This document shows positions 19,445 to 64,000 of a DNA stretch of 64,000 bases, piece by piece (positions within the stretch are counted from its first letter, which is position 1; each line of letters begins with the position of its first letter). A program made the translations under genes and the position numbers. Source of the DNA: Branchiostoma floridae (Eukaryota; Chordata; Leptocardii; Amphioxiformes; Branchiostomatidae). Under the pieces are notes generated by a model that saw nothing but the letters and a program-made list of their open reading frames with translations, searched no databases and had not been told where the DNA came from. The stretch is taken from contig NC_049988.1 of NCBI RefSeq assembly GCF_000003815.2, forward strand, positions 17,046,088 to 17,110,087, read 5' to 3'.

Positions 19445-19792
19445 ATGCCTGCTGCCGCCTGCAACGTGCCTGTTGTGTGCACTGAAGTTCCCAGCAAGAC
19501 TGATGTACTTGTGTGTAGTGAAATAGTTCCCTACAAGAGTAGTGATGTTCCGGCTTTTTGCAATACCGAGAAAGTTCCTGGCTTGAAAGTTCCTGCCAAA
19601 ACAGAAGTCCCTGTGCATTACGAGAAAGTTCCGGTTGATGTGAACAACAACTGTGCCGTTGACGACCTCATCAGCTCTATGAGCGCACAGTTGAACATTT
19701 CCGAGCCTTTGAACATTTCCGAGCCGTTAGCCCTACCGCAGTATAGCAACTATTCGCCGTACCACTATTACGTGTATTTCCCTTACTCTCCG
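19445..19792 (+). other. Unusual first coding exon of the boule-like paralog
   Basis: It encodes 116 residues with no counterpart in the neighbouring boule gene. The first part has imperfect repeats such as VPSKTDVLVCSEIVP and VPAKTEVPVHYEKVP. Next is the direct duplicate LNISEPLNISEP, then a Tyr-rich end YSNYSPYHYYVYFPYSP. It splices in phase 0 to the exon holding RNP2. Function unknown; it is probably disordered. Confidence 0.7.
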
Positions 19793-22700
19793 GTGAGTTT
19801 TTCTTTTCTTTTTTTCTTTTACGTTTCATTTGATTTGCAATGTAGCCAGCTTTGTTTTCCTTTTGTTCACTAACTTGCTTCGAAGGTAGAAACATGCTGA
19901 AATTTTTCTTGCCCACTTTTTACATAAATTCATACAGTGGCCAAAAGGGTTGGGTTGAAAGAAAGAGAAAGTATAGCAGAGTAGATCATGTTGGCCAGGT
20001 AGGAGGTTTTGTCTCCATGAGCACACTTGTTAATGTCTACTTTTAAAGTTTGCTGAAACCAATGAGGTTTTGCTGAAACTTTTCAATTACTTTTTGGTCA
20101 GTCTTTTACAAGAGACCAGCTTGTTCCATGCTGATGGATTTTCCTTTAGTGCTTGTTTACATTTGCCATTGTTATTGAGAGGTGTTTGGATTTCAATCCT
20201 TTTCTTTCGTTTTCTGCCTCATGAATACGAAGGGCTCTCTTTGGGCCTTCCTCTCTTCACATGCTGATTTATGGCAGGAAATGCTTTTCTGTTAGGATTC
20301 AAAAGTCCCAGTGATCTGAAAATTTAGGAACAGGTTTTTGTTTGAGAGGCAAAACTACGAAAGCTTCACCGTCCTTTTTCAGCACTCGGTTCCAGTGCTC
20401 AAGATGGCTTCAGCACTGGATTTCCAGTGCTGAATGTTCGTCAGCACTGGTTTTCCAGTGCTGACGCTCTCTCAGCACTGGAAAAGCCGGCGTCAGCACT
20501 GGAAACCGAGTGCTCGGACGATATCCCGTGCTGGTAACTCAAGTCATTTCCAGAAGGGCTGTAATTATGATTTGAAATCACACACAATAAATTTTGCAAT
20601 CCATTTTTAATGACATTCTATCTTTTATAGATATATAATCCAATTCCTACACGTTACACAACAAATGCAATAACTCAGATTTGGACTTTTGATGAACTTG
20701 GACCATATCTATATTAGAATTTTTGCCAAGTACTGCTCTCAGTACTTTTACAAAATTATATCTAACTCGTATACATTATACATATGTCAAGTTTCAATTG
20801 CACATCTGCACAACTTCGGTTTCTTGGCATCAGGTTACTTATTTTTTTATGCGAATCTTCACCAAGTACCGCTCTCATCACTAGGACACTGCAATTCTGG
20901 AAAGACTTCAGCACTGGTTTGAAGATCATTCCAGTGCTGAAAAGACGTCAGCACTCGTTTTCCAGTGCTGAAGATCCCTCAGCACTAGTGTTCCAGTGCT
21001 GAAGTGTCCCTGAGCACTGGTAAATCCAGTGCGGAAGGTGAAGCTTTTGTATATCAGCACTCGGTTCCAGTGCTGACAGCGATTTCAGCACTGGGTAACT
21101 AGTGCTGACGGCAGTCTAGCACTGGAAAACCAGTGCTGAAATGAGTTTAGCACTGGAAAACGAGTGCTGGAACAGTATTCAGCACTGGAATTCCAGTCCT
21201 GACGGAGCTTCAGCACTGGAACAGAGCCATTCAGCACACTGGAAAACCAGTGCTGAACTTTCTTCAGCACTGGAAAGCCAGTGCTGAGGGGGCTTTGAGC
21301 ATTGAATCAGCACTGGAATACCAGTGCGGAAGGTGAAGCTTTCGTAGACTTGCGTTTGAGAGGATATCTGTGTGAGGTACTGAGGTATTCTGAGAAAACG
21401 GTTGAAAGACACTTTGTCTTGAACTGTCTAGTTTTTTTAGCCATACCATCCAGTTTTTTAGCTATAAGACAGTTGAAAGAGGATGTGTAGTTTAGGGTTA
21501 AATTATTATGTAGGAAGGTGTTTTTTTTTTTCAGAGATAGACTGAAGTGAAAAAGAGAACTTTTTATTCCCATTAAAAACTTATATTACACTGAATGAAT
21601 GAGGTTTGATGGATCTAAATAAACCTTTTTTTCTTGTATTCTCTTCCCATTGAAAACTTTTTTTCTACTTTCACTTGTTGAAAATGAAAGACTGAGAGGA
21701 AAGTAAGTGAAATATAATTTTCATTTACACGAACAAGAGAGCTGCTTTTTCAACTTTCAGTCAATGATACTTCACCTAAAATGCTCTTGCTTGTCAGTTG
21801 CTGGTGTGCTTCGTATGAATTTTCTCCTTTAACTATTACAGTTATGATAATTGGTGTATTTTTGGACATATTTTCCAGACTGACTCTGTGCAGGGCACTT
21901 CACCAATCCCAGCCTCGACACCCTCCACCGAGGTGACGTCCCCCTCCACTGGACCCAACACTTACAAGTACAAGATCCCCTCTGGCACCAAGATAGATGG
22001 ACGTATCTTTGTGGGAGGAGTGACAGCTGGGGTAAGTACTAGCAACCTCCTTGGTACTAGTACCCACACCTTGCCATCTCAACAGTGATAAAAACTCTGT
22101 TTCATGTTGTACTTAAGTAATCTTCAAAGAGATCCTACGGTAGCATGAGATAGTATAAAAAGCTAGCCTGGTATCCATATTTTTTGGAGAGGACAGAAGA
22201 GACTCTGACTCTGAGCTATGACTTATAAGTATAACATGGCTGGAAACTAGGATTATCAAAAGCTGCCAGAGGAGTGAAGCCCACCAAGGACTGTGTATGC
22301 TACCCCAGTGGCTGATGACTCCCTTTGGCCAGCTGTACTCCTTGGCCAGCTTTGATACTATCTTATGACACTGGTAAATCTGCCTGGAGATTAATTAGTT
22401 GTACTCAGCAAGAGACATCCTTAATACCATCTCTGGAAAGAGAGGCCGCCTGTAGTATCTCAAGCATTTTATGTTTACCTAATTTTAATTTTGCCTTGAT
22501 AGTTTTTCTTTCCACTCCTGACTGCAGTAGAACATTCTAGTAATAGAAGTCTGCCCTCTGAGTTTGTTCCTTGTTCTTCTAGGGTAGTGTTTGTTTGACT
22601 GTGAAGTCGTACCTTTTTTTCATATATTCCTACAATATTATGGTCTATTTTGATTTTAGCCTTTCTTAATGCTATCTCTGTTTAACTTTTTAGTTTGAGC

Positions 22701-25700
22701 TAAAATATATATTTGTTTGTTGTTGTTGTTGTTGTTGCACTTCTGCACCATGTCCCTGAGTTACCGAAATTTTATATATGCTGCCATTTGCGTTGTAAAA
22801 ATGCAGCATTGTAAAATTCCGTTAACTCTGAGACACTTTCTTCTCTGCATATAGCCTTCTCTTGTGGCAAGTACAAAATGGGTGCACACGTACGATTGAG
22901 TCTAATTTTCTGTGAACTTTGATTTTAGCTTTGTTTGCCTTCTGGGAAATGGAAGTCCTATAGTTGTCATGGCTTTTGGGTAAACTTGGGTCTCACTGTA
23001 CCTTGTTAACTGCAGCTCCCATCCTCTCAGTTACAAGTTGTTGTAGAAAAGTAACTACATATGTATATCCTTTAGATTTGAGACAGTCGAGCCACCAAAA
23101 CATGTTGTTCTTGTACATTTATGCTTTTGTAACAAGCTAAATATTGCTGGCCTTAGTATCAGCATTGTTAGTTTACTGAAACTGAATATGGGAGCTCTGG
23201 CTGTTGTGTGAAGATAGCAGTCAAAATCAAATGTACAGATAGTTACATGAGAATGTGGTATGCGCACAGGTTCAAACAGCTGTTGAGAAAATCTGGACGG
23301 ATGGATCTTATCTTCTCATCTGTTCTGTATCCCTCCAATGTGTTATTATTGTGTGTACCTGTGAAAGATTTACTGCCGTTTTATCTACCCTATGCTGGGG
23401 AGACAAGGGTCATCGCAAGTTGGTCATGTAGGCTTGATTCAGAACAGATATGTCACCCAAATGGCAGGAAATTCCACCAATTCGTTACCCCTCTTCAGCT
23501 CATTTGTCTTCCAGGACAAGTCCAGGGACAGAAATTTTGCTTCTCGACATGGTTTTGAAAATCTTAGAAAGTTATGCTGCCCATCCCAAAAGTCTGAACT
23601 TCATGACTTGAAATTCTAGTACATAGATGAAAAAATTAATTTTAAAGAATTAAGAGCATGATCTCCCTAAATAAGTAGGACAGAAAAATATTTTAAGCTG
23701 GAGACAGCTCTACCTGTACACAAGACTGTTTGCAAGGGTGTTTCCATGGCTTACTGTTTTATATATACTCTGCTCTACTCTCTACTTTATTTATAGGCCA
23801 GCTCCTTGGCTTCCAGGGCCTACTTGATCTAGAGTCTTAGTCCACTTGCTAATGTTGAGCTTCAGCCAGCAGTTACTATGGACTCACTGGAGCATGGTAC
23901 CCAGGCTATAGCAGTCCGAGCAAGGAGGTTTTATGCTTACTCAGGGGGCTGCCACTAACTTTCTTGGTGCCATGTTGGCCATGAACTTAAGTTAAGGACT
24001 CAGAGCTGGCCTGTGTGTGCCCTGAGAACAGCCTGGCATCCAAGCCAATTTGTAGAACTTTTAAGTTTTAACAGCTGAAAGGGCAGTTAACCAGGATTCT
24101 CATGTGGCACAAATTAGTTTTATGTTTGCCCATTAAATGGATACTTTCATCCTGATAGTTATCTTTGATAGATAAGAGAGTACTACTAGTCCCTTCTTTG
24201 TTGGTGTGTAAGTGCGCAGTTGAGTGAATGAGTGAGTAAGTGAGTGAGTGGGCAGATGAGTGGGTGTTTGAATGACTGACTGAGTGAGTGAGTGAGAATT
24301 TAAAAGACAGATAAAGGTTCTGGCTATGTTTTACTCATTTTGCCACATTTTGTAGACGTTTTTTTTACTAGAGGTTATGTTTTCAGCTCCGTGTTTTAAT
24401 GTTGTCTCATACTCAGCTCTCTTGCAAAGTGGGGAGAGAATATGGGAGCCTCAGTAAGCTAACTAGGATGGTACCAAGGCAAGTACTAGTATGTAGCACA
24501 GCTAAAAAGTTCGAACTCACAGGTAATAATATGACATGTCATTTTTTGTTCAGACCTCCGAGCAGGAGCTGAAGGGCTACTTTGGTGCCTACGGGACTGT
24601 CAAAGATGTAAAGATCATATTTGACAAGCAGGGATTGACCAAGGGGTAAGTCATAGTCACATTCTATTCTCCAAGCAGAGGTTGGGTCGCAGAGATGGAA
24701 GTTGTAGGAAAGCGAGCCAGTAATGATCCTGACGACAACTATTACTGCGACCCAACCTCTGCTTCGAGAATGAAAACATACATGTACAGTTAGTAACTTA
24801 CACCTGTACCAGTGACAACCTATGTATGTCCTTATACATAGGTTGTCATGATGGTTATAAGGACAGTTTTCTCCATACACACAAGCATCATTCAAGAATC
24901 CTGTTTAGTCACAGACTACCTTTCCACATAGACCAAATTTCATTAGTCCCCTGATAGAGATAGCTTATAAGTTGCACCACTGTAAGCTATTAAATGCCTA
25001 CTTAGCAAGCCCAGGAAGTAGATTTCTTCCAGAAGGCAAATAAACAGAATGGTAGGGATCTGTAGTGATCTGAAACCCCTTAGATCTGGTTTCAACATAC
25101 ACAAGTTGTAAGTTGCTACGTGACAACAAGAGAATTGAGAACTTCCCTAGTTTTACAGAGACTTAAAAGTGTGGAACGCACGTAAGCTATATGTTTTACA
25201 CACAGTTATAATGAAATCAGGGTTAATCTGAACAGCTTGTGAAGAAAAACTTGTGAAGAAAACAGCTCTTCAGGTATTAAACAGAAATTTGATCTAGAAA
25301 TAGCCTGAGTGTTCCTGGTGACTGCCTGCGCATGCTCTATCCAAAGCAATTTGCCAGCAGTCACTAGAACTGAGGGTGGCACTCAAAACTAATCAGGAAA
25401 ACCTACAACTTACAAGAACATGCAAGGTGGATACTACTGACAGGAAAGTTGTTAACCCATGTGCTCACCAGGAGCTGGCCTGTGTTGGCCCTGGCAAGTC
25501 TGGAACAGTGACTTGCAGGCTACTGTTACTGGTCCCCTACTCTCCAAGCAGGGATTGGGACCTGGATATCATATGTTTCTGACGTTTTTTTAGGTTTTTT
25601 TTTTTTGTTGGACAAACTGCCAGCTGACATGAAGAAAATAAAAGAAAATTTGAAAGTCTTTTTGATACAAGTTTTTTATGTTTTCTTCCAGGTATGCCTT

Positions 25701-28700
25701 CGTCACTTTTACTTCTAATGAGGAAGCCACCAAGCTGATCAAACAGGTACAACAAATCTTTTGCCTTTGGGTGAAATAAGGTTTTGTCAATGACATAGAT
25801 GTAGCTTTTTTAATGACAGCTTTTTATGACAATGACAATGACAATGAAGTTTAATGACAATGACAATGAAGTTTATTGCATATTCATGCCCTCCTAGGGC
25901 TAAATGCAGTAAGTCGCATACAAAGAGTCTGATAAGTTAGCTATTCTATGTTCTACTTACAACAATATTTCTACATGCTTCCTCCCTCTTCTTAAAACAT
26001 GTGAAGACGAACTTACAGAGTTCTTCTATCAAATCATAGTTAACTGATGTCATTATATATTTGAAAAAGTCTTCTTTTGTTAGTTGTGCATATTTCTGTT
26101 TTGCAAGCGTAGTACTATTAACAAAGGTATTGCGTATATCTTTATACAGCGAGCATTCTAGAAGAAAGTGCGCTTCATCTTCTATATACCTATTGTTCTT
26201 ATCACAAAACATACATAATCTATCATGAAGAAGGATAAGTAGAAAGTCGACTAGTAGAAATGTAATCTACTTCATTAATAAGTTCATCTATGTTTTGGAT
26301 TGTCATTTGTCCCTGTGTCAGATCATCATGTATCAACTTCCTCGGAACTCAACAAACTCACTTGTCGAGGAAAGTAGGGGTTATCCTTTGGTGTGCAGGG
26401 CAAATTCTTCAGGTCAACGCAGACCCATGCCTTTCCTCATCCTACACCTGAAAGACATGTTCACAGAGATCTTCATTGTTCAATGTGTCAGCTGCAAAAT
26501 TCCCCTCCACATTCCTACAATGCTACCTGATACTTCTGCAGTGCTTGTGGTCCCACACACTGCACAAGCCCATGTGTCAAAAATGGAGACATTGGGTAAT
26601 TTCCCCTTCAGCTGGTAGCTCAAGGGTGGATAATAAATGTGCCCCAAGAGAAGACCAGGGGCAGGGGGCACTCTCCTGTCAGTGTGTTGGTGGTGATAGA
26701 TGAACTGTACCATCTGGGGTTGATCTACAACCAAATGGACCACTTATTAGGTCTCTCACCACTTCCTTTGTGTCAACTTGCTCTTTCTTGTAACTGATAA
26801 CTATCTGTCTCCAAGCCTTGTTTTGCCACATTTTGGATGTCTATCTTATTCTAGTCTAGAACCCATGGTTTCAGCTCTTCAGTGTTAACTGCGGAAAAAA
26901 GTTATTATACATCTTTGCTGTGCAAAATTTCATTTTGAAGAGAAGTAATCTATTGAGACAATTGAAGAGTGCTGCACATTTATTAAGGCTCACCACTTCC
27001 TTTGTGTCAACTTGCTCTTTCTTGTAACTGATAACTATCTCGTAGCAGTTGTTGGCATGTAAGGTTTTCTGTGTTGTCTTTTTCTGACAGTTGGGGTTTA
27101 ACTTTTTGTTACAATCCCTCCTTACAATTACATACATTTGTAGGTTTAATTTGTATTGTTTGTTTTGTTTGCTTTTTTGGTATCCGGTAAACCACATCAG
27201 GTTTGTGCAAGCTGTTTATCCAGACAGGTTTGTTGATTTTATAGAGGGAAGGTTCCCTACTCTTTCCAATAAGTGTGGTGAGTTTTCAAACATACTCAAG
27301 ATTTGGCTGTCCACACTTGACCTTTTTTTAGGAGGAAGGGACTTTGGTAGCCTGGGTACCATACCATTGAGGCGCTCTAGTTGCTCTTCGGCGGTGTAGG
27401 GGTGGCCGGCCGCCCGTGCAGTTAATTGCTACAGGCCGCGGGAGTTCTTACAGGGTTAGGTTAATTTTGTGGCACCCCGACGCTGGCGGAGTAAACTCCA
27501 AAGGCCGGCACCCAAAGCCGACCAGCGGAGAATGGTACCCAGGCTAGGACTTTGCCAAAGCTAGGTACTCAATTACACCTGAGTTATTTCAAGTGAGGAT
27601 ATTGAGCTGTCCAAGAATCTGTACCATCACCTGCAGGTTTTGAGTCAGCAACCCTAACCACAATCCCACCATACCACCCTTAGCTACATTTCTGAGATTA
27701 ACTTTTTAAAACCTGTAAATGTATTTTCATTCCACTTGCAGGCAGATGCAGGCCAGCTCTTTCTCTTCAAAGAGAAGAAGCTGAACATCGGTCCAGCCAT
27801 CAAGAAAAGAGTGAGTTTGTTCCCAGTGTTCAGATGAAATGGTATTGCTTCCTCCCAACCCCACCTAGCCTGGGATACCAGACCCCAGCCCTATCTCAAA
27901 AATATCATATCATCGTGTCCCAATATGATAGATATTTTTGTGATAGGGCTGGGGTCTGGTATCCCAGGCTAAATTCCACCCCCATTATTTTGCTTGGTGG
28001 CTTTCAGTGTTATTCACCATATATTTCTACAGTTAGTGTTGTAAGCCCTGAAATGTATGATACGCTAGTTAAATGTATGATATGGTATTTGGCAGGATGC
28101 TTACTCTTCTTTGTTCAGGGCTGGTAACAGACCTTNNNNNNNNNNNNNNNNNNNNNNNNNNNNNNNNNNNNNNNNNNNNNNNNNNNNNNNNNNNNNNNNN
28201 NNNNNNNNNNNNNNNNNNNNNNNNNNNNNNNNNNNGTACTGGCAACCACATACCTTCCTATGTTTAAATGTCACTCATTGCGTTATGTTCATGGTATGGC
28301 ATTTTTAGTACATTCGGTTGTGGCTCTCCAAACTTATTTTTGTTCTAGTAGATACATTTGTATCTCTTGTTCAAATTGAGAGGGACAAAAAAAAACATTG
28401 GTTCATCAGTTTTGTCCCTCCTTGCCTTGATGGAAACCTGTGATGTCTCATGTTTGGTTTTCCTGTTTTGTTTTTTTTTTCTCAGCTGACTTTGTGGTGC
28501 CGGGAGCAGGAGGGATGGTCTACAATCCCTACCCCGGCTACGCCTACCAGAATGGGGTGGCCTACTTCACCCCCGAGGGTGTGCCACAGGTAGGTGTCAA
28601 CATTATGTCCTAAGCATTCACTGCACGGCTGTCTCTAGAACCTTTCCTTCCGTCCAGGGACGGAAACCTGCTTGTTGTGACAGAAAGTAATCATGCCTCA

Positions 28701-31700: not shown

Positions 31701-34700
31701 CCTCCACTATACTAAAAAATTCTAGGGAGAACCCTGCTGTCTGTACCCTGATATACCTCATCCTTTCCCACAACATGTACAGCAGTTGCCAAAATGATGA
31801 CTCAAACAAACACAGTTGAACATTTATTCCACAAGCACAAATTTGTGTTATTCTTTGTCACTTGTTTTATCAGAAATACTCTAGTATGTTCAAGATTAGT
31901 AGTACCTTACAAATACAATTCACATTGTTAACAGTCGGACAGACAACTCTTGAACAATTATCTACAAATTTGCCAAATACTAGTACCCTACATACAAGCA
32001 GGGGTCTAACTCATGGGGTCAATATTTCGTTTTGGGCTTGTTGGCCCTAGAACCAAGGAGCTAGTCAATGGAGACCCTGAAAACAGTTTTGTTACCTAGG
32101 CCAACCTAAAATTGACAAAGGGATCCCTTTTTTCAACCTCCTTGCTCTTACTTAGCAGTCTTACTACAAGGGATACTTTGGGGAGGGAGGGGGGCAAAGC
32201 TTGACTGTGAACAGTTTGGATTACAATGACTACATTGACCCAAGGAAAAGGAATAAGATTTGTCACACTTAATGGTCTTTTGAAACCCAACAGCTGTGCT
32301 AAGTTTTGATCCTTCTTGTCTGTTGAAAATACTGGTTTGTCTATCGACTCTATGAAAGTGTCTAATGTACGTACACACCATGTATTCAGGGTCACAGCAC
32401 CACACCCGCATCTCATTATCATATTTCCCAGCAGCCTTTGTTCTCAGTGGCGGCATATACAAATGAATGTTGCAGTTCAAACTTTCAGTCAAATATTTGC
32501 AGGAATAGAGAACAAAATCTGATAAATGTGTTCATGTGAAAAATTAGAATAAGCTATTCCCAAAATGATTAAGAGATTTTAATGCACCTTGGTCTTATAG
32601 ATTTTGTAGAGAAAGGATTTTGTGTCAGTAGTTTTGCCACAAAAGGAATTTGTGACTTGTACCTAGTCTCAAAATTGCAAGCCTGCTTCAGATCACTCTG
32701 GTTTCCCTTCAATCCACCACGCACAAATCTTTCGCCTTTTACTAAAGATTTCCGTGGAGGGGAACAATCAATGAGTCTATAAACAATTTTTCTCTGCCCT
32801 GCCTTGTGCAGGGCTCCTAATAAACCAAAGAAGTCCACACCCAACACACCTTTGCTAAGCCTAAGATTAGAACCAGTACACAAGAGTAACTACTTTTTGG
32901 CGAATACAAAAGAGTGGCGTATACAAAAGAGTGTATGGTGTATACAAAAGAGTTAGTACAGAAGAGTGAAATATAAATTGCCCAGACCCCAACAAAAACT
33001 GTGATAGAACAGAAACTAGCAACTAAACTTCCACCTGCTGTTAATTTTGGTTTTTCTACCTCTGTTTGTGGGATGTAGGTCCTTTGGATGCTAAAGAGCC
33101 CACCACAAACCATGGAATTTTGCTTCCTGGGACTGAAAAAATATAACCCTAGCTGTCCAAATAATTTGAATTTCATAACAGGAAAATAACCATTGAGGTT
33201 TTAAACTGAAAATGACAGATTCAACCAGGAAAATTAACAACCTAGGTTCCCTAACAATGTATGAGACTAAGGGAAAAAATTACTGACACACTTAAAGAGA
33301 ATACCGGTAGAAAGGGTAACGCTGTATAAAGCGAGTCATATCACCTCACCTCACTTATCCCTTGGCCTTCTACTTCTAGCACATAGTATTAGCTGTTTGA
33401 TAAAGCATCATTCTTAACCTCTGTTGAGGATGACTTCTTTATCTTTACCTTTGTCTACCTTCCCACCTTCCCCAGGTGGCGCCCATGATGCCAGCCTTTG
33501 ACCCGGCCATGCAGGCGAACGTGACCTACTCTGTCCAGACTCTACTGGGAGATTACATTGCTCCTCTTTCTTTACCTTTGTTTACCTTCCCATCTTCCGC
33601 AGGTGGCGCCCATGATGCCAGCGTTTGACCCAGCCATGCAGGCAAACGTGACCTACTCTGTCCAGACTCCGGTGCCGGCTGTGGACTACACCAGGACCGC
33701 TGGCATGGTCAGCTGGAGGTGAGTTTCAAACCTCAATAATACCTTAGTCCTAATCTCCAAGCAGATCTTACAATGGCATAAAATAGTACCAAACTGGCCA
33801 AGGAGTGTAGTCAGCCAAGAGGTGCACATTTGCCATGTAAAATCTGCCCCCAGTCGGCTAGAACAAAGGCTATTAACATCCAATTGTTTCCCATTCAAAC
33901 TGTGTTTGCAGTGTAGGTGCTAATTGCCCTCCTTCCTGTTTGGTGCTAACTTCCAACTGGGACATGTGCTGGTCAAAGACTTTGTCTCAGTGTAAGTTGC
34001 TCGTAAAATGATTAGCACATGGCAACAGGGAGGGGCAGCAGCACCATCGCTGAATAGAAATGCTCCTCCCTGTTTCAGTGCAGGCAGATCCCCGGTAGCC
34101 AAACACACTCCTAACCCGGCTTCACTCCTCTGCCAGCTTTTGCTACCATAGGATCTGCTTGGAGATTACCTTAGTCCTACGTCACATTTCCAAACCTCAA
34201 TAAGCTCTTTCACATAGGTCACGATGCACATGCTCCATGATTCAGCAGCTGTGTTTTAGATTATCAAGAAAGCTAAATTTTGAACAGGACATACAGACTG
34301 TTGAAAGGACAGGTCCTTTGTCCCAGGGTGCAAATTTGCTTGTTGAGACGGATAAAAAATTCACCCCATCCGTCCAAAAGGTTTATGACATGAAACTGTT
34401 GAAATTAAAATTGTATTTCAGGAAGCAAAAAATTACAGATTTAGCAACAGTAGGCTCCCAAACAATAAGTGGGATGGGAATAAAATCAAAGCTGGAGACA
34501 GCCCAGCAGGACATACATGTATCCATGCCTCACCTATCTCTTGACCTCTTAATGGGTTGTTGAGGCACCAGGACTTGTCTTTGTTTGATTCACCACAAGT
34601 AGACTTCTCAAAAAGTTGGCTGATTGTGTAGTTTAGGGCTCATTTAAGTTGACAGGTTGCGTTTTATTTTACCGCTAAGGTAGTAATGGGCACTTCTATA

Positions 34701-42300: not shown

Positions 42301-45300
42301 TTAATGTTCGCAATCTTCATGGTGGCCGCTTCACAACAAGCTTAAAACCCAAGTTAACATTTTTCTATTGCAGTAAGAGACTACAGTGCATGGTGCTACC
42401 TCAAACTTAAAATCACCGCAAAAAGTCCTTTTTCCCGCTACCGCGAATTTAAATCCCCGCGAACTTAAATGCATTTACAGTACTCATGGAGGCCAACAGC
42501 AAAGTTCATCTTCAAACTCTGGGCACACAGAATCTTGCATGCAATAATGCCTGCCTTGTTCAATTCACTTGGAAGCGAATGTCTGAAAACTAACAAGGCG
42601 AGTCTTGGAGTCTGAGAGCAGGTTCACTCCCCCAGTTTGGTGAAACAAGTAACCCCAATTAGCCAACAAAGGTCTTATTCAAAGCCAGCTTAACGTTTTG
42701 CCTGCTTGCAACTTTCACAGCTGACAAAGATGTATTACCGGTGACCTCGCTTTCATGAGAGGTTATGGGATAAACTTGTTGGTTCACTTGATGTGATAGG
42801 TGAAACAAAATGTCCTTGTTAACAATTGTCATGTACCACATTTTAACCCCTGGCAGAGTTGACCAGGGTTTGGTTAAATGGTCCAAGTTGAGTATCTGAG
42901 TTGACTGCCCCAGTTGGCAAAGGGCTGAATCATCCTGATGGGCCCATTTTCTTAGCCCGGGTAACTTCCTACTTTTATCGGCCACTCCTTGCATTCACTG
43001 CACTAAAAAAGCCCCGGTAGAAATAGGATGGTACCCAGGCTACCACTTTCCAATACTGTACCAAACACAATGCATAACAACCCAATGGCCTCTAAAAGGT
43101 TATTACATTACGGAACCCATGATAGTAGGACTGGTGTGCTATATACTTACAGTGTTTGGGTAGTAAGACTGGTGTGCTATAGGACTACCTATATTACTAT
43201 ACTTACAGTGTTTGGGTAGTAAGACTGGTGTGCTATAGGACTACCTTCTCTATACTTACAGTGTTGGGGTAGTAGGACTGTTGTGGTGGGCCCTGTGGCA
43301 TGTACATGTTGCAGGGTTGGTGGGTCGGTGGTCCAGCCGGCAGCATGATCGGGGCGGGGCTCAGCGATGGAGGCACTGAGGGACCGACTATTGTCTGTGT
43401 CAAGAGAAATGTAAACATTTGGTTGAACTGAAGTGTATGTAGCACAATATGTAGTAGTATACATTGTACTAATATCTAGACAAAGATTATACTGCTGCTG
43501 GGGTCCCTGACATGGGTGGGCAGCAGTCAGCTAGTCCTCACACTTTCATGGTTTACACTGGAAAGGCCGCATATTGATGTCCTTCGCAACACACTCCTTC
43601 CAAGATTTCCTTGGTCTACCACGATCTCTGTTTCCTGGTAACTGCAATTTAAAGATGGTGTTGATACAGCCACTGAGTCGTTCAGCTTCAATAATGTTTA
43701 AGGTCAAATAACTGAAACAGTGCACAACTTGTCGACTGGTCAGCTTTTTGTTGTGGCGGAAAAACATAATTTGTAAAAAGTTGGTGTCGGAGAGAATATT
43801 AAGTAACAATGTGTAAGATGCCAAACAAAGAATTCTAGAATTTACCTGTTGAGGCAGGTAGCTATCTGGGCACATGTACCCATACGGCAGACTCCAGTTG
43901 TTAACAAACGAAGTACTGGGACCAATATCCGCCAAGTAGGGCGAACAGGAAGACTCTAGAGAAAAACAAGCAAAAACAGTGCATAAAAATCCATCCAGTG
44001 GTACAAAATTTTTGTTATTATGGTTTCATATCTTGGTTAACTTCAGTTCAGTATCTCTACTTTTTGATAATTAAAAGGTACAGCAATGTTATAGAATGGC
44101 ACATTTAACAAGATATCAAAAACAGAAGTTCTGCTGCAGTACCTAGGAAACTTGACAGGGGGCCCAAATTCTAAGCATGAGCATCTTCATTTTGCCGACA
44201 TGTGAAAAATGAAATATCCCTCCAGAACTTCTTATGAGTTATGCTGTTCACAAACAGACTAGCAGGAGCACACATAAAGATATAACATTGTATCGGATGT
44301 CCACTGGTCTTGGACCATCATAGGGTTGCATAGCACAAAAATTAGATACTACATACTCTAGGGTAGTTGCATACAACATAGGAAATCATATGAATGTGTA
44401 TTAAAAGATTTTACTTAAAGATTCATTCAACTTTCAACAAGTGATGCTCACCTGGACGGAAAGGTGATGGAAGGGAAGGAGACTAGAAAAAAAAAGAAGC
44501 AAAGAAAATGCTGAGAGATTTTCAACAATACATTTCATCAAGCAATACAAAAATAACACATTTAGGTTAGCTAACCTCTTGGTATTCTGAGTAGAAGTAC
44601 AATTTAAAATATTAAACGAAGAGAGAGAAAAAAACCTTGACACTATTCTATCATTTTTGAAGTTTCGAGAAGTTACAACATAAACCATTTAATGGGATGA
44701 GAAAAATACTTGACGCAATGCTATAAGTCCAACATTAAACATTCAATGAGAAGAGATTAAAAAACTTGACACAATATTGATAATGCTATTAGTTCTTTAA
44801 GTCTTTATATGTTATACTTAGATTTGACACATTATAAGATGTTCTATTTCTTCCTGCCTGGTCAAGAAAATATACATGTCACTTCATAGGTAGTTGTGAA
44901 ATTCCACTTACCTGCTTTCTGATGGCCGGGCCTACATTCAACCTTTTGTCTTTAAACATCAGGTTGTCGTTCTGTAAAAAAAGTTACAAATGTCACAAAA
45001 ATACAGGTAAGCAATGCCTTAAATAATTTATGACAGAAAATACATGGATTACTTCAGCTTATATATTGTCATTGTGGACGAAAAAAATGACCGGACATTT
45101 CAATTCACCTGCTGTGCCTTGTCAGCTGCCTCCTGGCTGTCGAAGGTCACAAAACCATAGCTGTAGGAAATAAAGATGCACCAAAGATGTTACCAAAACC
45201 CTGTAGTCTTCAATCAAAAGTCAAAGGTCCCATGTTTTAGGAGAACCACAACTCGCACACCTTAAGAACCCACCAGGCCACCACACTTATCAAAAATAGT

Positions 45301-48300
45301 AGGCTTGGGTCCTTCCTGGTGTGAGTGGATCAAACCCTTTAGCTGATCTTACACAGTATACTTACAAAACTGGTGTGTTTAGCTGTTGACAGGGCTGGAC
45401 AAGTTTTCTTAAATTCCCTTGTCGCATGAGGCAAGCACTTGGACAAAAGGGCAAGTGGACTTGTCCAACCCTGTGTAAAGCACAACAGTTTTGTACCTAA
45501 TGGCTATTACTCTAAAGGGTTGATTTACTGGTTGTGCACAACAAGCAAACAAACAAACAAATAAATCTGAAATGTGCAGGTTGAGGGTGACTAATTTATC
45601 CATCTCTATCTACATGTATCATGTTATTTTTGAGATGGGGCTGGGGTCTGGTATCCAGGCTATGTAACTGTAAGACCAGATGAATGCTTACAGACCTGTA
45701 ACCATGCCATTAGTCAATGACATGTAGGCATTAGTAACACAAGAAGTCATTTCACGGATCATTACCCTTAAGGGTGCTGTAGATCTGGCTCTCTTCAGGA
45801 TTTACCTCTTTATCTGGGACACTAAATGGATCTGTACCTCCCCACACATGTATCATGTGTAATGTGATCTAGTGGACAATCTTCTAAAACAACTGGCTGT
45901 GACCCTAGCTAGAGACACCTGTTGTTTTAGTGTCTTTTGGTGCCTAAAGACACACAGAGAGCAGCAAATTCCTGAAAATACCTTTGAGTTCAGGATGGTT
46001 TAATTTTGCCAATACGCCATTTGGATACAAGTTAATAGAAACATGAAAGAATGAAATTTTAAATGCAACCTCTGGCTCTCTTCAGGACTTACCACTAGTA
46101 CTTTATCTTTTCATCTGGGACACTACATGGACCAGTACCTCCCCACACATGTATCAGGTGTAATGTGATATACTAGTGGGCACTCTTCTAAAAGATAAAG
46201 ACTTCAACAAACTGGCTGTGACCCTAAGCTGAGGACACCTGTTGTTTCAGTCACATCAGTGTTTTTTTTTCTTTTTCTATATTCAAAAACACATAACAAG
46301 GACAATGTAGCGCTGCACTCAAGTTTAATATCTTATTTTAACTAATGAACTTAGGTAACTTAGGTCAACATAAATAACTGTGCGCCATTTCCCACCACCC
46401 CAAGACATAAAGTAGTTAGTATCAATTAGCCTAAGTGAGTACATATGAAAAAGAGAATTAACAAAAGTAGATTTGGGACTTCTATATCTACTTGACTGAT
46501 ACAGTCAAACTTATGCCTATGCTTACATCAGTGTTGTTCCACCTTAGAGAACACTAGCCTGATTAAATCTTGCTTATAGCAGCCCGCCAATCATGGGCCA
46601 TCCTCCTGTGATGGTGGCCAGAACTCAGTGAAGACCTTTCTTTATTCCCTGCCCGGTCTGAGACGGGCTCCACTCCCTTCTCTCAACCTGCTCGGTGCGG
46701 GACTCTAGCTTTACTCTCTTCGGACCTGCTCGGTCTGATACTCGCGCCAAATAGCCCCCACTCTCACTCCACTCTCCCCTTTATAATGTTGAAATGTTTT
46801 ATTGCAAATTCATGCCCATAGGGCTTATTGCAAGTGAACAAAATCAAATACTGTACATGGAGTGATTGAAAATTGGTAAATAATCTAAATTCTAACATAC
46901 AAAGATTAACTGATTGAATGTGCATACAGAATATCGACTATGACTATAAAACCTACATTACTATTGTGGGGTTTGACTTCTTTTCATATCCCCCGGTTGT
47001 TACCTCTGCCAACTTAATTATCTTTGTCGGCACAAGCTATGCCCATCTTTTCCTTTGTCGGCACTGCAATGTATGTCTGCATGAGCTATGACCATCTTTT
47101 CCTTTGTCGGCACTACAATGTATGTCTGCATGAGCTATGACCATCTTTTCCTTTGTCGGCTCTGTGTAGGCACTGTAGGAGCTGTGTACTGTTGTCAACA
47201 CTGAGGCCAAAGCTGAAGTGCCCCCTACTGCTCTTGGTCAGACCTAAGGTCAGCCTTAATTACCTTTTGTCTCAACTGGACGTTGGGGTCAGTCCTAAGG
47301 TCAACTGTAATTACTTATATCTGGCGTTTTTAGGACATCATCAGCTCAAAACAAATATCGTTCCCGTGGGAAAGTAAGATAGTTACCTACCGCTCTCATG
47401 GGAAGTGCTAGAAAGGGTTACAGATAGCAAAAACTAATATGTTATACACATACTAGTTATGCTACTTCAATTCTCCGTGTTTTCTATTCCATGACACTCC
47501 CTCTCATTATCTTTCAGCATGTCTTGTTGTGACCTGTACTTAGCCCTGTGTGGCAAAAATGTACAATAACGGTCTTCATTCTTCATTATCCAGCTAGCTT
47601 CCTAAGGGGAAGGGCCAGTTACAGACCTGGACAGCAGAGGTTGTGTTACACCAGGACTGTCTCCAGTTAATTTTCCATCCCACTCATTGTTTTGAGAGCC
47701 CATGTTGTTGATTATGATGGTATTGAATATGTCAGTTTAAGCTTATGATAGTACCTTTTCAACAGCTTCATCTTTGAGACAGAATTTCCGTCATGGGATG
47801 GAAGGATGAGTCCTAGAGACAGCTTTGTGTTACACAGATCAAGACTAAGAGAACACTGCCTTAGACACAGGTGGAATTTATGAAGCTGGACAGGTGAATT
47901 TCTGAAACTCACCCCTTGCTGACTCCCGCTCTATCAGCGATGATCTTCGTGTCCCTCACGGCACCAAACTGGCTGAAAAAATCCCGCAACTCCTGCTCTG
48001 AACACTGCAGTCAGGAAGATACAACATGGCACAAATCAGTAAACAATACATCAATGGTTAATTTCATTTATATTATGTATGTATACACAAAAATATGTAA
48101 ACATTGGTGTCATATATGCCTGTATGGTCTGGACATAACACAATATGAATTAATTCATTCTTTCATTCGACGAGCGACGATACGACGACGACGACGACAT
48201 TCATTTGTTCACTCATCTATTCACTTAATTATTGTATTTCGATAAGAAAAAATGTAAACATAAACACTTTTCAGTTTTAAGTGATTTGTGAATTACTTGT

Positions 48301-51300
48301 ATTATTTTGCTATGTAGAAAAGGCCAGTCTACCCAACAAGTTTTTAAACCTAGGTATACCATATACTTTTAATCTGCTGACATTACAAAGTTTTGACTAT
48401 GAGGATAGTTACATCTGTGTGAAAGCCCCCTAACGAAGACCTGAAGGCCAGACAGTCGCAAATTTTGGCAACGTCAACTCTCATACTTCTTCCAGGTATA
48501 ACAATTATAAGACTCATTTTGTAGCTGCTTTGTACAATTTGCTTTATGGTCAAAACATTTTTTTTTTGTGTAAATGAATGAAAATTTATGTGTGTGTGGA
48601 TGTTATCCATGTAATCAAATGAATATGATCTCTCAAACTTTATACAGCTCAATTTACTTACGTCTGGGTCAAAACCCCTGACAAAAACCCGATCCCTGAA
48701 GAGCGTTCCGATTTGCACGTGCTGGTAGTGCCACCAGGGGTACACTGGTGTGGCCAGCTGCATGGGGCCGGCAGGTGTGCATGCGTGCGAGGTGGGCAGG
48801 GTGGCGGCCGAGGCACTGGCATCCGCAGGCAGGTCGTTCTACATGCAAGCATGCCATTATATTTGTTAAACATGCTAATGTGTAGTCTCTACCAGACTCC
48901 GGATCGCTGGAAAAATCGTAGAAATGCAACGAATAGAGGAGTAAGCCGGCCAGAGGAATATAGATCGCGTGCTGTTCCCTAGCCGGCTATATTCCTCTGG
49001 CCAGATTACTCCTCTATTGGTACCATTTCTACGATTTTTCCAGCGATCCGGAGTCTGGTAGAGACTAGCTAATGTGAATGATGGTCAAACATGCAGCTTG
49101 AAACTTGGAGCTGTGCAGGTGTTTCTGATGTCTACCTGCACTGGTCCATGTACTGGGAATATAAGCTGGTGTGTTATGCTGAAAGGCAGTCATACCAGCT
49201 ATAAAGATATGTGAGAAAGGGTTAGAAACAGTCTTGTAATTCCCATGATTCGTATCCGGGTCGCCAGACGATCACAAACCCAGATGCTAAACTGTTACGC
49301 CAAAAGGCTGACAGCCATTTAGCAAAGTTGGTTTGGCAGTCCTACTGTTATAACAAGTTCATGCAGATGTTGTTCCCTGTTCAGCAACTTCAAGGGATTA
49401 AAAAATACATCTTGTTAGAGTGTCAATCTGCTTTTATATTAATCCATCCCAACAGAAAAACCTGAAGTGCGTTCTCATACATACACTCACTCACTCAGTC
49501 CCAAAGCTCATACACACATACATACATACATACGTTATACGCTATCCCGCCCACGAATACTCTGTTTGGGATAACGGTTCCGTAGAGCGGGGCTTTAGTC
49601 ACGTTGCTGGTGGAACAGGTGGAGTTTGCAGGGGATATTGAAGTAGACCTCTGAGGTGTGGGGAGGGGGGCAGGAGAGTTGGACGTGGAATGTTCACTCT
49701 GGCGGGAAGAGAGAGAGAGAAAGAAGAAAAAGTAGTGAGAAGGCAGAAGTTTTACAGTTTGAAAAAGGAAGGGAAAGATATGCTGGTAGTTACCGCTTGT
49801 TCTCAATGTTTGCTTGCTACCATGATATAAGCAACTGAGAGAGAGAAAAGTAGTGAGATGGTAGAAGTTTTACAGTTTGAAAAAGGAAGGGAAAGATATA
49901 CTGGTAGTTGCCACTGGTTCTCCAGTTTTGCTTGTTACCATGAAAACCAATCGCAAAGGCAGAACGAATGTAAAAGTGATCTCGATCCAGTTTTACAGTT
50001 TGAAAAAGCTCTGTAGTTCATACTGTTTTGTAATATTTTGTCTTAAGTTTTTACTTGCTTGTAATATTTCCCCAATAAAAGAACAAAATCAACCTCATAC
50101 AAGTATGCCCAAATTGGAATACAAATGTAACTTAGTTGACCAAGTGTTTTTACATGTTTTGAAAATATTTAAACTGAATATCCAAACTTAAGCTGAAGAT
50201 TGTTACTCTTAAACAACAGTGTGTAAGTACTGATCATCATCATATTTCATTACGTATTGTCATTTAGGGATAAATGTACATTTGATGGTCGTATTTTATC
50301 ATGTATTGTTTATTAAGAATATTCTTGTACATGTATTTTGAATGTTGCAATAGAGTATTCAGCCTCTTGGCAGAAAAGAAATGGAAGAGACAGCAGAAAT
50401 TGCATGAGATGGTATCCAGGCTATGGAAAAGAAATGGCTGAGTAAGTTAAAAGATACAAATTAGGATAAGATAGATTAAACAAAGATAGGAAAAGAATCT
50501 GTTTTTTTCAACGTTCTAGTCGACCTTAAATTCTACAGTGCTTGGTCAATGTATGTATCTGTAGATATACACCTGCATAATACAAGAAGGTGTCTTTCCA
50601 ACAACCACTAGAAGAATTTCTGTGATCAATCATGCACCTGTAGCAAAAGCTTTTAGAGTTTTTTGTAACTTTTGTTAAATGTAGGTACCTTCCTCGGTTC
50701 CATTTGGATCTGTGAAGTCGTGATAGTTAGTTTTTGATTCCCTTTAGCCGATGCGACTCTAAGGAAAAACGTGTTCACTTGTAATACATAGACGAGGATA
50801 AAAACAACGTCTGTGTATTATTCCCCAGAGTTGCACAGGCTAGATTCCCTAGGCCTTGTTTTAATACCGTTTGTAACGTATCAGTCTAGTTTGTTCGTAG
50901 GGATCACGTTACAATCTGATTTCTGTGACAGAAAAGGACTTTGCTATTTTTGCGGCTTTTCTCCTCAGTTCAACTCTGTACCGTATATGATTATTTCCAA
51001 ACTGAGTTGTAGAGATGTGTCGACTTTCTGTACCCTCAAACCACCGTATGGGGTCAAAACTGACCCCAGGCGTATATCATTGCGTGCCATTATGTCATTT
51101 CGGGTCGAAAACAAATTTCCTTCCAGGAGTTTGTTTGTGTATATGTCCTATAACTTCTTATACGTTTTTACCAAGATTGGTTCATTGTTGATTAAGTTAT
51201 CCTCGAAAGTTTATGCATGGTCCAGTGGGGTCAAAACTGACCCCAGCATTTTTTTAAACAAACTTTTGCAACCCACACCGAAACTACTTATGGTAGGATT

Positions 51301-61910: not shown

Positions 61911-64000
61911 AAAAGAGCAAGAAGTGAAACCTATTGTTCTCAACAGTACTATATATAAAACAATTTTTGAGCACCCCTCCCACCCATATCTTATGCTGAT
62001 GACTTTGGGCTGGTAAAACGTACTAAAACATTTCAAAACCATGAACGTTGACTTGTGCTGTTAATGTTAGCCCAGTTTGCGTGAGAACCCTGAGAGCCTA
62101 CGCCCCCGGGTGTTCATTCCTAGCTATTTCCTGTAACAACACTGTATAATAGTAGTGGTTGCACCACGGGAGACCAGCGTATTACAGGTATAGGGCGCAC
62201 GTACACATTAGACTGTTGTTGGCTCAGATTATATAGTATTACGCAGGCGTTCATATTGAATGTACTCTAGTAACATACCAATGTCGTTGAAATACGTATC
62301 ATTGATACATTTAAGGCAATTAGATGATACTAAAGGTGCGCTCTCACCGCACTTGCATCAAGCTTGCGTCACTGCGGGGTTCGAAAGATACACAACGAGT
62401 TTCAGACACAAAGAACAAATTTTCTTACTTTTTCTGTAATTTTCTAAGTCATACTTTTGTCAAAGTCTAAGTCATACTTTAAGCAATATCTGAATTATAA
62501 AAAATCGGAGAAAATAACAAAACAGTGACGCAGTGAAAGATTCCCGCAGTGACGCATGCTTGACGCAAGTGCGGTGAGAGTGCAGCTTTAGATATAATAT
62601 AGACGATAACCACTGTCTATTTTCTCACACCCCCAGTGTCAGAAGTACCTTGAGCATTATGGGTACCTGTGTAAGGGACAAACGGACAGGCCGGAAACGG
62701 AAGTGAGGTCAGCACTCGCCAAGTTCCAGAAAGCTGCTGAAGTTCAGGAAACAGGTAAGGGCATTTTGCACCTGTTATGCGAGGGTGACATTTCCAAATC
62801 AGGCCCGACCTAAGCCTCCTTCGCAGACAGCGGGGCTGGCTTTTACTTTATGGGCCCGCTTGAAGTCTGCAACGGAACCTAACAAAGTCTAAGTATGCTA
62901 CATGTAGTATGTACAGGTTCTACTTCTTCTCGCTTATTAAAACAGTTGTAAATGTATATGTATGTGTATATGTATATAAAAGGACATGGTTTGTCTATTT
63001 GCATAAGGAATGTAAATTTTTCTATGCTATCTATAATAGGTGAAGTTGACGACGCCACCAGCAGGAAGATGACCGAGCTACGCTGTCTCCGGCCCGACCC
63101 GCTCGCGCTCACAGAGGCACTTGCCACCACGGAACCACCGGCCACAGGTGAGCTTTTCATTCCTTTTTACTTCTTATATCTTTAACTAGTTATACTAGTT
63201 ATATGAAGTTTGTTATGCCCATGTGAAATCATATGTTACCCTGTAAGGCTTAGGCCCATTTCCGAAACGGTGCCCGGCCGGGATGTTTGCGGAAACGAAA
63301 AATAAAAGTGTTTACCAAATTATGCTCATGACTAATTATTTCCGTTCTGTGTGTTTTCTTGCCTTTTCAGTATATTTTTCGTTTCCGAAAGCTACTCGGT
63401 CGGGCCCCGGGTTGGGAATTGGCGCCTAAGCCCATGTGTGAAAGCACGTCGACCGATGATGATGATGATGAAAAAAGAAGAAAAGAACTAGGTCTGTATG
63501 TCTAACCTTCATAGACACATATCGTTCTAGTGATGGCCATTTCCTTGTTCCAGGCGTCCCCACTAGAGGCACTACCGTGTGGAACAAGCACAACCTGACC
63601 TACAGGATCAAGAACTACACATCGGACCTTCCACGGGAGGAGGTGGACGATGCTGTCGAACGGGCTCTCAAGGTACTTTCTCCTTTAATTTTTTTTGTGT
63701 GCGTGTATTTCAATAGAGCATAAACGTAGTGAAAAGTAGTGTAAAGGCTTAGCTCATATTTCCAAACAGGGGCCCGACCGGGCAGCTTTCGGGAGCGAAA
63801 AGAATGTTATAAAAGGTATCAAAATTCACAAAATGTCAACATAAGATTCATGGGCGTGATTTGTGTATACCTTTAAGTATACATTATAATTTTTCGTTTA
63901 TTAAGACATCCCGGCCGGGCCCCCGTTTTGATTTGGACCTCCTCGTGTATGACCTTGTTCTTTACCGTGTTTCCATCCAGCTGTGGTCAGACGTCACGCC
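61151..64000 (+). CDS. Matrix metalloproteinase, 5' part (prodomain and catalytic-domain start)
   Basis: In-frame exons: 61151-61162 (or its duplicate 61525-61536), 62637-62754, 63040-63147, 63554-63672 and 63981-64000, where the window ends. The protein starts MDPT-CQKYLEHYGYLCKG, the MMP prodomain. KFQKAAEVQETGEVDDATSR and KMTELRCLRPDP follow, with the cysteine-switch position. Then comes the catalytic-domain start WNKHNLTYRIKNYTSDLPRE, EVDDAVERALKLWSDVTP. MMPs are zinc endopeptidases of the extracellular matrix kept inactive by the prodomain Cys. Here the switch is LRCLRPD rather than the usual PRCGxPD: Cys, Arg, Pro and Asp are kept, while the first Pro and the Gly are lost. No signal peptide is visible before the prodomain, so an upstream or alternative first exon may exist. 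The zinc-binding HExxH lies beyond the window. Confidence 0.82.
62331..62590. mobile_element. MITE with CTCACCGCACTTGC ends
   Basis: CTCTCACCGCACTTGCATCA and TTGACGCAAGTGCGGTGAGA are inverted, with GCGTCACTGCGGGG and CCCGCAGTGACGC inside. Located just before the first prodomain exon of the MMP gene. Confidence 0.75.
62880..63035 (-). mobile_element. Small LINE 3' fragment
   Basis: Minus-strand peptides IDSIEKFTFLMQIDKP and FNKREEVEP match the C-terminal part of the LINE at 55442 (FIFLMRFDKP, KKREEAE). A TA-rich run lies between. It sits in the MMP intron. Confidence 0.6.
63247..63432. mobile_element. CCCGGCCGGG-family MITE (copy 2)
   Basis: GTGCCCGGCCGGGATGTT...GAAACGAAAAAT and TTTTTCGTTTCCGAAAGC...CGGGCCCCGGG are inverted. 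In an MMP intron. Confidence 0.6.
63747..63950. mobile_element. CCCGGCCGGG-family MITE (copy 3)
   Basis: CAAACAGGGGCCCGACCGGG...GCGAAAA at the left and ATTTTTCGTTTATTAAGACA, then TCCCGGCCGGGCCCCCGTTT, at the right are inverted. In an MMP intron. Confidence 0.6.

Follow-up and report, generated by a model that had tools for sequence, protein, structure and literature searches.

Boule and its neighbors in the window

The window, a stretch of 64,000 nt from contig NC_049988.1 of the lancelet Branchiostoma floridae, carries boule, a fertility gene, on its minus strand, for which the following exons could be assigned:

49534-49698, minus strand: exon A, the canonical boule RNP2 exon, ending GTVIPNRVFVGGIAYN; 165 nt, phase 0 at both ends
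47913-48004, minus strand: exon E, the common next RRM exon, CSEQELRDFFSQFGAVRDTKIIADRAGVSKG; 92 nt, GT/AG borders
45109-45160, minus strand: exon F, the RNP1 end, (G)YGFVTFDSQEAADKAQQ
44912-44971, minus strand: exon G, the RRM end, NDNLMFKDKRLNVGPAIRKQ
44452-44482, minus strand: 31-nt exon, after G and before the next exon

Read in the order A-E-F-G, the minus strand spells a full RRM. Exon A (SEHST...NRVFVGGIAYN) has GT/AG borders, with an acceptor at the 100.0 percentile and a donor at the 92.3 percentile of the 8002 AG and 7753 GT sites of the window; the matrix used for these and all further splice-site ranks is approximate. Excerpts of PMC2904765 name the two RNP motifs as the best-conserved part of the Boule RRM, give the Boule signature as PNRI(V)FVGG for RNP2 and DRAGV(I)SKGYGFV(I) for RNP1, and place at least two introns between the RRM-coding exons. 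The lancelet exons A-E-F encode PNRVFVGG and DRAGVSKGYGFV, in agreement with this signature, and three introns lie between the RRM-carrying exons A, E, F and G. Exon A has no in-frame ATG, and a scan for an ATG-to-donor first exon ending in phase 0 returned ten candidates, none of them convincing. A tandem repeat of period 118 (1.8 copies, 49728-49943), its units carrying pyrimidine runs on the boule strand, ends just 5' of exon A, and the E-F intron holds a second tandem repeat, of period 49 (47035-47164, 2.7 copies, 95% matches).

A second DAZ-type gene is found in the same window on the strand opposite to boule (19445-27810, plus strand):

19445-19792, plus strand: exon 1, 116 residues
21879-22031, plus strand: RNP2 exon, GTKIDGRIFVGGVTAG
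24554-24645, plus strand: exon
about 25692-25746, plus strand: exon
near 27763-27810, plus strand: further piece of the gene

Joined by hand, its RRM scores 60.6 bits against Pfam RRM_1. Since excerpts of PMC2904765 report no canonical Dazl in Branchiostoma floridae, this paralogue deserves a look. Short inverted units of the form CAGCACTGG...CCAGTGCTG are numerous in its first intron (20380-21330). Elsewhere in the window are a U5 spliceosomal RNA gene (32693-32815, plus strand; Rfam 99.4 bits) and, near the right end, a likely matrix metalloproteinase-type exon (63472-63720, plus strand; Pfam Peptidase_M10, 28.6 bits).

Exon B and its likeness to exon A

Within the 1529-nt interval between A and E, the first-pass annotation had placed another exon, able to replace A in front of E and to supply a first RRM strand of its own:

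48662-48838, minus strand: exon B in its longer form, a candidate alternative RNP2 exon, ending GTLFRDRVFVRGFDPD; 177 nt, phase 0 at both ends

The coordinates given for A and B were right, both exons are phase 0 at both ends, and both join in frame to 47913-48004. Exon B reads NDLPAD...DRVFVRGFDPD, has GT/AG borders with the donor GTAAGT, and is 64% G+C. No stop interrupts the RRM in any of the combinations A-E, B-E and A-B-E. With A-B-E in frame and 695 nt of intron between A and B, neither frame nor intron size bars the inclusion of both exons, and none of the sequence features tested bars their joint use. The open frame of B is itself weak evidence, since, of the remaining two minus frames across it, one is open as well and one is interrupted by a lone stop codon, two codons short of the end.

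The acceptor of the 177-nt form (start 48838) lies at only the 63.8 percentile of the 8002 AG sites, with further in-phase acceptors at the 94.5 percentile for a start at 48757 (96-nt exon) and at the 80.3 percentile for a start at 48721 (60 nt). Because the acceptor at 48757 is far better (94.5 vs. 63.8), exon B is more likely short, spanning 48662-48757 (96 nt, LATPVYPWWHYQHVQIGTLFRDRVFVRGFDPD); its length is a multiple of three in the long and the short form alike. The six other boule acceptors tested range from 97.1 to 100.0, and the two of the second DAZ-type gene stand at 95.9 each. The donor of B, at the 97.7 percentile of the 7753 GT sites, ranks above that of A and that of a third copy, C, described below (89.6). 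Different N-terminal leads had been expected from A and B; the lead supplied by B varies with the acceptor used, and the acceptor adopted in the first-pass annotation is the weaker one. The long form contains MQLATPVYPWW..., the in-frame ATG of which is situated immediately 5' of the short form, directly before the 94.5-percentile acceptor.

Exon B had originally been chosen by eye for its likeness to A. In a donor-anchored alignment, the final 16 residues of the two exons show 7 identities and 9 differences (BLOSUM62 score 30), a score reached by none of 100000 shuffles of B composition. Of all open donor-anchored 16-mers of the window (3335), the best-scoring are A itself (84), the RNP2 exon of the second DAZ-type gene (43) and B (30); the next scores 18. 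A score of 30 was reached somewhere in one of 60 first-order random windows; as B lies on the right strand and inside the A-E interval, the chance of such a match falls to about 2e-4 (1/60 x 1529/128000). Local alignment of the whole exons gave a score reached by 62 of 20000 shuffles, and short B against A one reached by 3 of 5000; for the leaders alone the figure was 301 of 5000, and convincing homology between A and B comprises the last 16 residues only. Tandem duplicated exons are described in excerpts of PMC9741552 as coding for homologous polypeptides seven or more residues long, a length that the 16-residue segment with its 7 identities exceeds. Both exons also share the same phase at both ends, a criterion for such exons that is our own.

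At the nucleotide level, codon positions 1, 2 and 3 agree in 7, 13 and 3 of the 16 codons, and six of the seven residues common to A and B use different codons. When A was mutated at random to equal DNA identity, the protein score was kept in 43 of 20000 runs (8104 runs hit a stop and were scored as failures), and starting from B it was kept in 21 of 20000 (7749 with a stop, likewise failures); there is some circularity in these codon-position and mutation tests, as likeness at the protein level was the reason for choosing B. Overall, B is unlikely to be a chance match to A.

Other origins of the exon were considered. A search of the genome (513 Mb, 431 contigs) gave no second copy of B among the matches listed (next E 0.118, 5 of 5 candidates scored), and a second search gave none among the 40 scored of 259 candidates; a repeat-derived origin is unsupported, with no second copy among these matches. 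Descent of B from the RNP2 exon of the second DAZ-type gene is likewise unsupported, the score being 24 compared with 30 to A, and 348 of 5000 shuffles reaching the local score; the same is true of a relationship to exon 1 of that gene, where 1947 of 5000 shuffles score as high as whole B does. Nor is there support for the copying of a gene instead of an exon, as the other convincing boule-like pieces found by tblastn in the window belong only to the second gene on the plus strand (19-28 kb).

The first-pass proposal that A and B each provide a complete first strand (GTVIPNRVFVGGIAYN and GTLFRDRVFVRGFDPD) was borne out, the RRM being completed equally well by either. Against Pfam RRM_1, E-F-G alone scores 58.6 bits, rising to 70.7 with A, 70.2 with B and 71.0 with short B; the construct with both A and B scores 69.4, and here Pfam places the RRM on the strand of B. 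Three decoy strands, which were the best unrelated donor-anchored matches to A and were joined without leaders while the A and B constructs carried theirs, gave 61.0, 60.0 and 64.8 bits. Replacing A by B lowers the best DAZL structure match from 81 to 71 bits and that to hnRNP A2/B1 from 83 to 72. The same replacement improves the match to PABP 6r5k from 100 to 118 bits summed over four RRMs (28.7 to 36.9 for its second RRM) and that to PABP1 1cvj from 52 to 60. The second RRM of 6r5k aligns its NIFIKNLHPD to the RVFVRGFDPD of B. Compared with the Boule RNP2 signature, the RDRVFVRG of B agrees at five of eight positions and thus does not carry it.

A broken third copy and the repeats around exon B

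Of the intron sequence on either side of B, the following features are relevant:

49068-49076: 9-base target duplication CACATTAGC, A-side copy
48883-49067: palindromic transposon (MITE-like) between A and B, with 81-nt arms
48874-48882: 9-base target duplication CACATTAGC, B-side copy
48513-48627: dispersed repeat between B and C; 259 candidates, 40 scored
48413-48440, minus strand: C, a broken RNP2 copy, GTCTTCGTTAGGGGGCTTTCACACAGAT, donor GTAACT; 28 nt

Where the first-pass annotation recognized two RNP2 exons, A and B, both stand, and a third, broken copy at 48413-48440 had been missed. Compared with the end of B, C has a B-like VFVRG followed by a one-base length difference, and scores 15. 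This makes it the best of 7748 GT sites for likeness to B (the count leaves out B's own donor and one overlapping site), the next scoring 12. A score of 15 was reached by none of 20000 random 700-nt strands and by one of 40 random whole windows. In the VFV segment, B and C differ at silent positions only. The upstream flanks of B and C gave no alignment, and when B was compared with the B-E intron simply as nucleotides, the result lacked significance (score reached by 464 of 3000 window pieces). C came to light in the donor-anchored test only. Inclusion of C would shift the frame and lead to an early stop. Placed in frame with the ending FHTD, C gives an RRM of 65.1 bits, which is about equal to the best decoy (64.8) and therefore no evidence that C works. 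C looks like a decayed sister of B, and it shows that copies in this intron can decay.

The palindromic transposon with a 9-base duplication, which had been reported between A and B, was found again: its arms (48883-48963 and 48987-49067, 81 nt each) are 94% complementary, and the CACATTAGC flanks are perfect. Its family, of about 185 bases, is represented by 896 candidate places in the genome; among the 40 that were scored, itself included, the other 39 share 85-92% identity with it in their better orientation. A transcript of the palindrome is predicted to fold back into a highly stable hairpin (-144.6 kcal/mol, z -20.55), the base of which lies 44 nt before the start of the long form of B. 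The intact 9-base duplication suggests that the insertion was recent. The dispersed repeat on the other side of B has its coordinates converted from query positions 241-355.

Possible origin and use of exon B

We suggest, at a probability of roughly one half and from the genomic sequence, that B is used as an alternative RNP2 exon that arose by an old tandem duplication. The observations behind this are the position and phase of B, its 16-residue homology to A, its compatibility with the RRM, the searches that found no second copy elsewhere, and the broken C adjacent to it; from them we infer a duplication origin, transcription of B, a choice between A and B, and an altered RNA preference. In this scenario, the RNP2-coding part of exon A would have been duplicated in tandem long ago, within the intron before E, one copy (B) keeping its reading frame, phase and donor and a second (C) decaying. 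Splicing of A to E would give the canonical boule RRM, and splicing of B to E a first strand RVFVRGF instead of RVFVGGI. The fourth RNP2 residue of RRMs faces RNA. With exon B, the residue two positions beyond the stacking Phe, on the RNA face, would change from Gly to Arg. Given its very strong acceptor, A probably serves as the default exon; B, with a weaker acceptor though a donor stronger than that of A, probably needs regulation and would be the regulated alternative.

Several observations count against alternative use. The acceptor of long B is ordinary, and even that of the short form, although near the two of the second DAZ-type gene, ranks lower than all six other boule acceptors tested; at three of eight positions B deviates from the Boule signature; the DAZL match loses 10 bits (81 to 71) on the swap; the neighboring copy C has decayed; a transposon sits close upstream; and the convincing homology is limited to 16 residues, with random windows matching B in 1/60 and C in 1/40 of cases. 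Some of these would also fit a relic, that is, a duplicated RNP2 exon no longer spliced in and on its way to becoming like C, as the weak acceptor of the long form, the changed signature residues, the broken sister copy and the insertion of a transposon 44 nt upstream could indicate. We regard this as possible but less likely, given that frame and phase are intact, the donor ranks above that of A, divergence has affected third codon positions but largely spared second ones, and the RRM score with B equals that with A. The likeness of B to A could also be the product of chance in a G+C-rich stretch (64%), where one further minus frame is open and an equal match turned up somewhere in one of 60 random windows; the joint agreement of position, strand, phase, donor and Pfam score, together with a broken copy in the same intron, makes this highly improbable.

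Two further readings would have B spliced in, but in another manner than by replacing A. Were B an optional cassette between A and E, the first RRM strand would be that of B, with a longer N-terminal tail ahead of it, which is consistent with a length divisible by three in both forms, the open A-B-E frame and the 69.4-bit RRM that Pfam places on the strand of B. However, the strand of A would then presumably be left as an unused tail, and the known class of tandem duplicated exons is one of substitution (PMC9741552, in excerpts), so that we consider it unlikely. Very unlikely, too, is the reading of B as an alternative first exon driven by a promoter of its own: the in-frame ATG of MQLATPVYPWW... 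in the long form, the missing in-frame ATG of exon A and the fruitless ATG-to-donor scan for a boule first exon would fit it, but the 94.5-percentile acceptor, in phase and directly after this ATG, counts against it.

To return to B as an exon substituted for A, its use might, more speculatively, give the lancelet two boule proteins differing only in the RNP2 strand and the lead, one with the canonical RNA surface of the DAZ type and the other with a PABP-like RNP2 bearing an Arg on the RNA face, so that two sets of targets could be addressed by this germ-cell regulator through a single exon choice, from an array that may once have been three-membered. If B has been kept, a rewritten second RNP2 exon would represent a natural experiment on the role of this strand in the choice of germ-cell targets.

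The resemblance to PABP is confined to RNP2, where B raises the PABP match and its strand aligns to the second PABP RRM, whereas the rest of the RRM is that of Boule, with a Boule RNP1 and end. As in other Boule and DAZL genes, A, E, F and G make up a canonical Boule RRM that is interrupted by introns (excerpts of PMC2904765); in contrast, the mouse Boule forms described there differ at exon 11 and in 5' and 3' splicing, and a DAZL splice form alters exon 8. The first-pass statement that no boule or DAZ gene is known with a swapped RNP2 exon agrees with the literature searched, in which titles and abstract openings yielded none. In excerpts of PMC3735472, Boule/DAZ is named once, in the background, and a term search of PMC5740500 returned no RRM, U2AF or DAZ.

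Substitution of tandem duplicated exons is a known class, with 236 human events according to excerpts of PMC9741552. The lancelet pair resembles these in having homologous exons in tandem, but the human events were curated from distinct coding transcripts, whereas A and B are described here from the genomic sequence. The closest known case is that of exons Ab and 3 of U2AF1 (U2AF35), alternatively spliced duplicates that change RNP2 residues of the RRM-like UHM, as excerpts of PMC5224494 describe. The UHM, however, binds a protein, U2AF65; seven residues differ between the U2AF1 exons, compared with nine of the last 16 between A and B; and the inclusion or skipping of both U2AF1 exons leads to a stop codon (PMC5224494, same excerpts), whereas A-B-E is open. 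Alternative duplicated exons and variation of RNP2 are thus already known, and a swapped RNP2 in boule would be new if B is used. If true, it would place an RNA-binding example beside U2AF1, whose varied RNP2 sits in a protein-binding domain.
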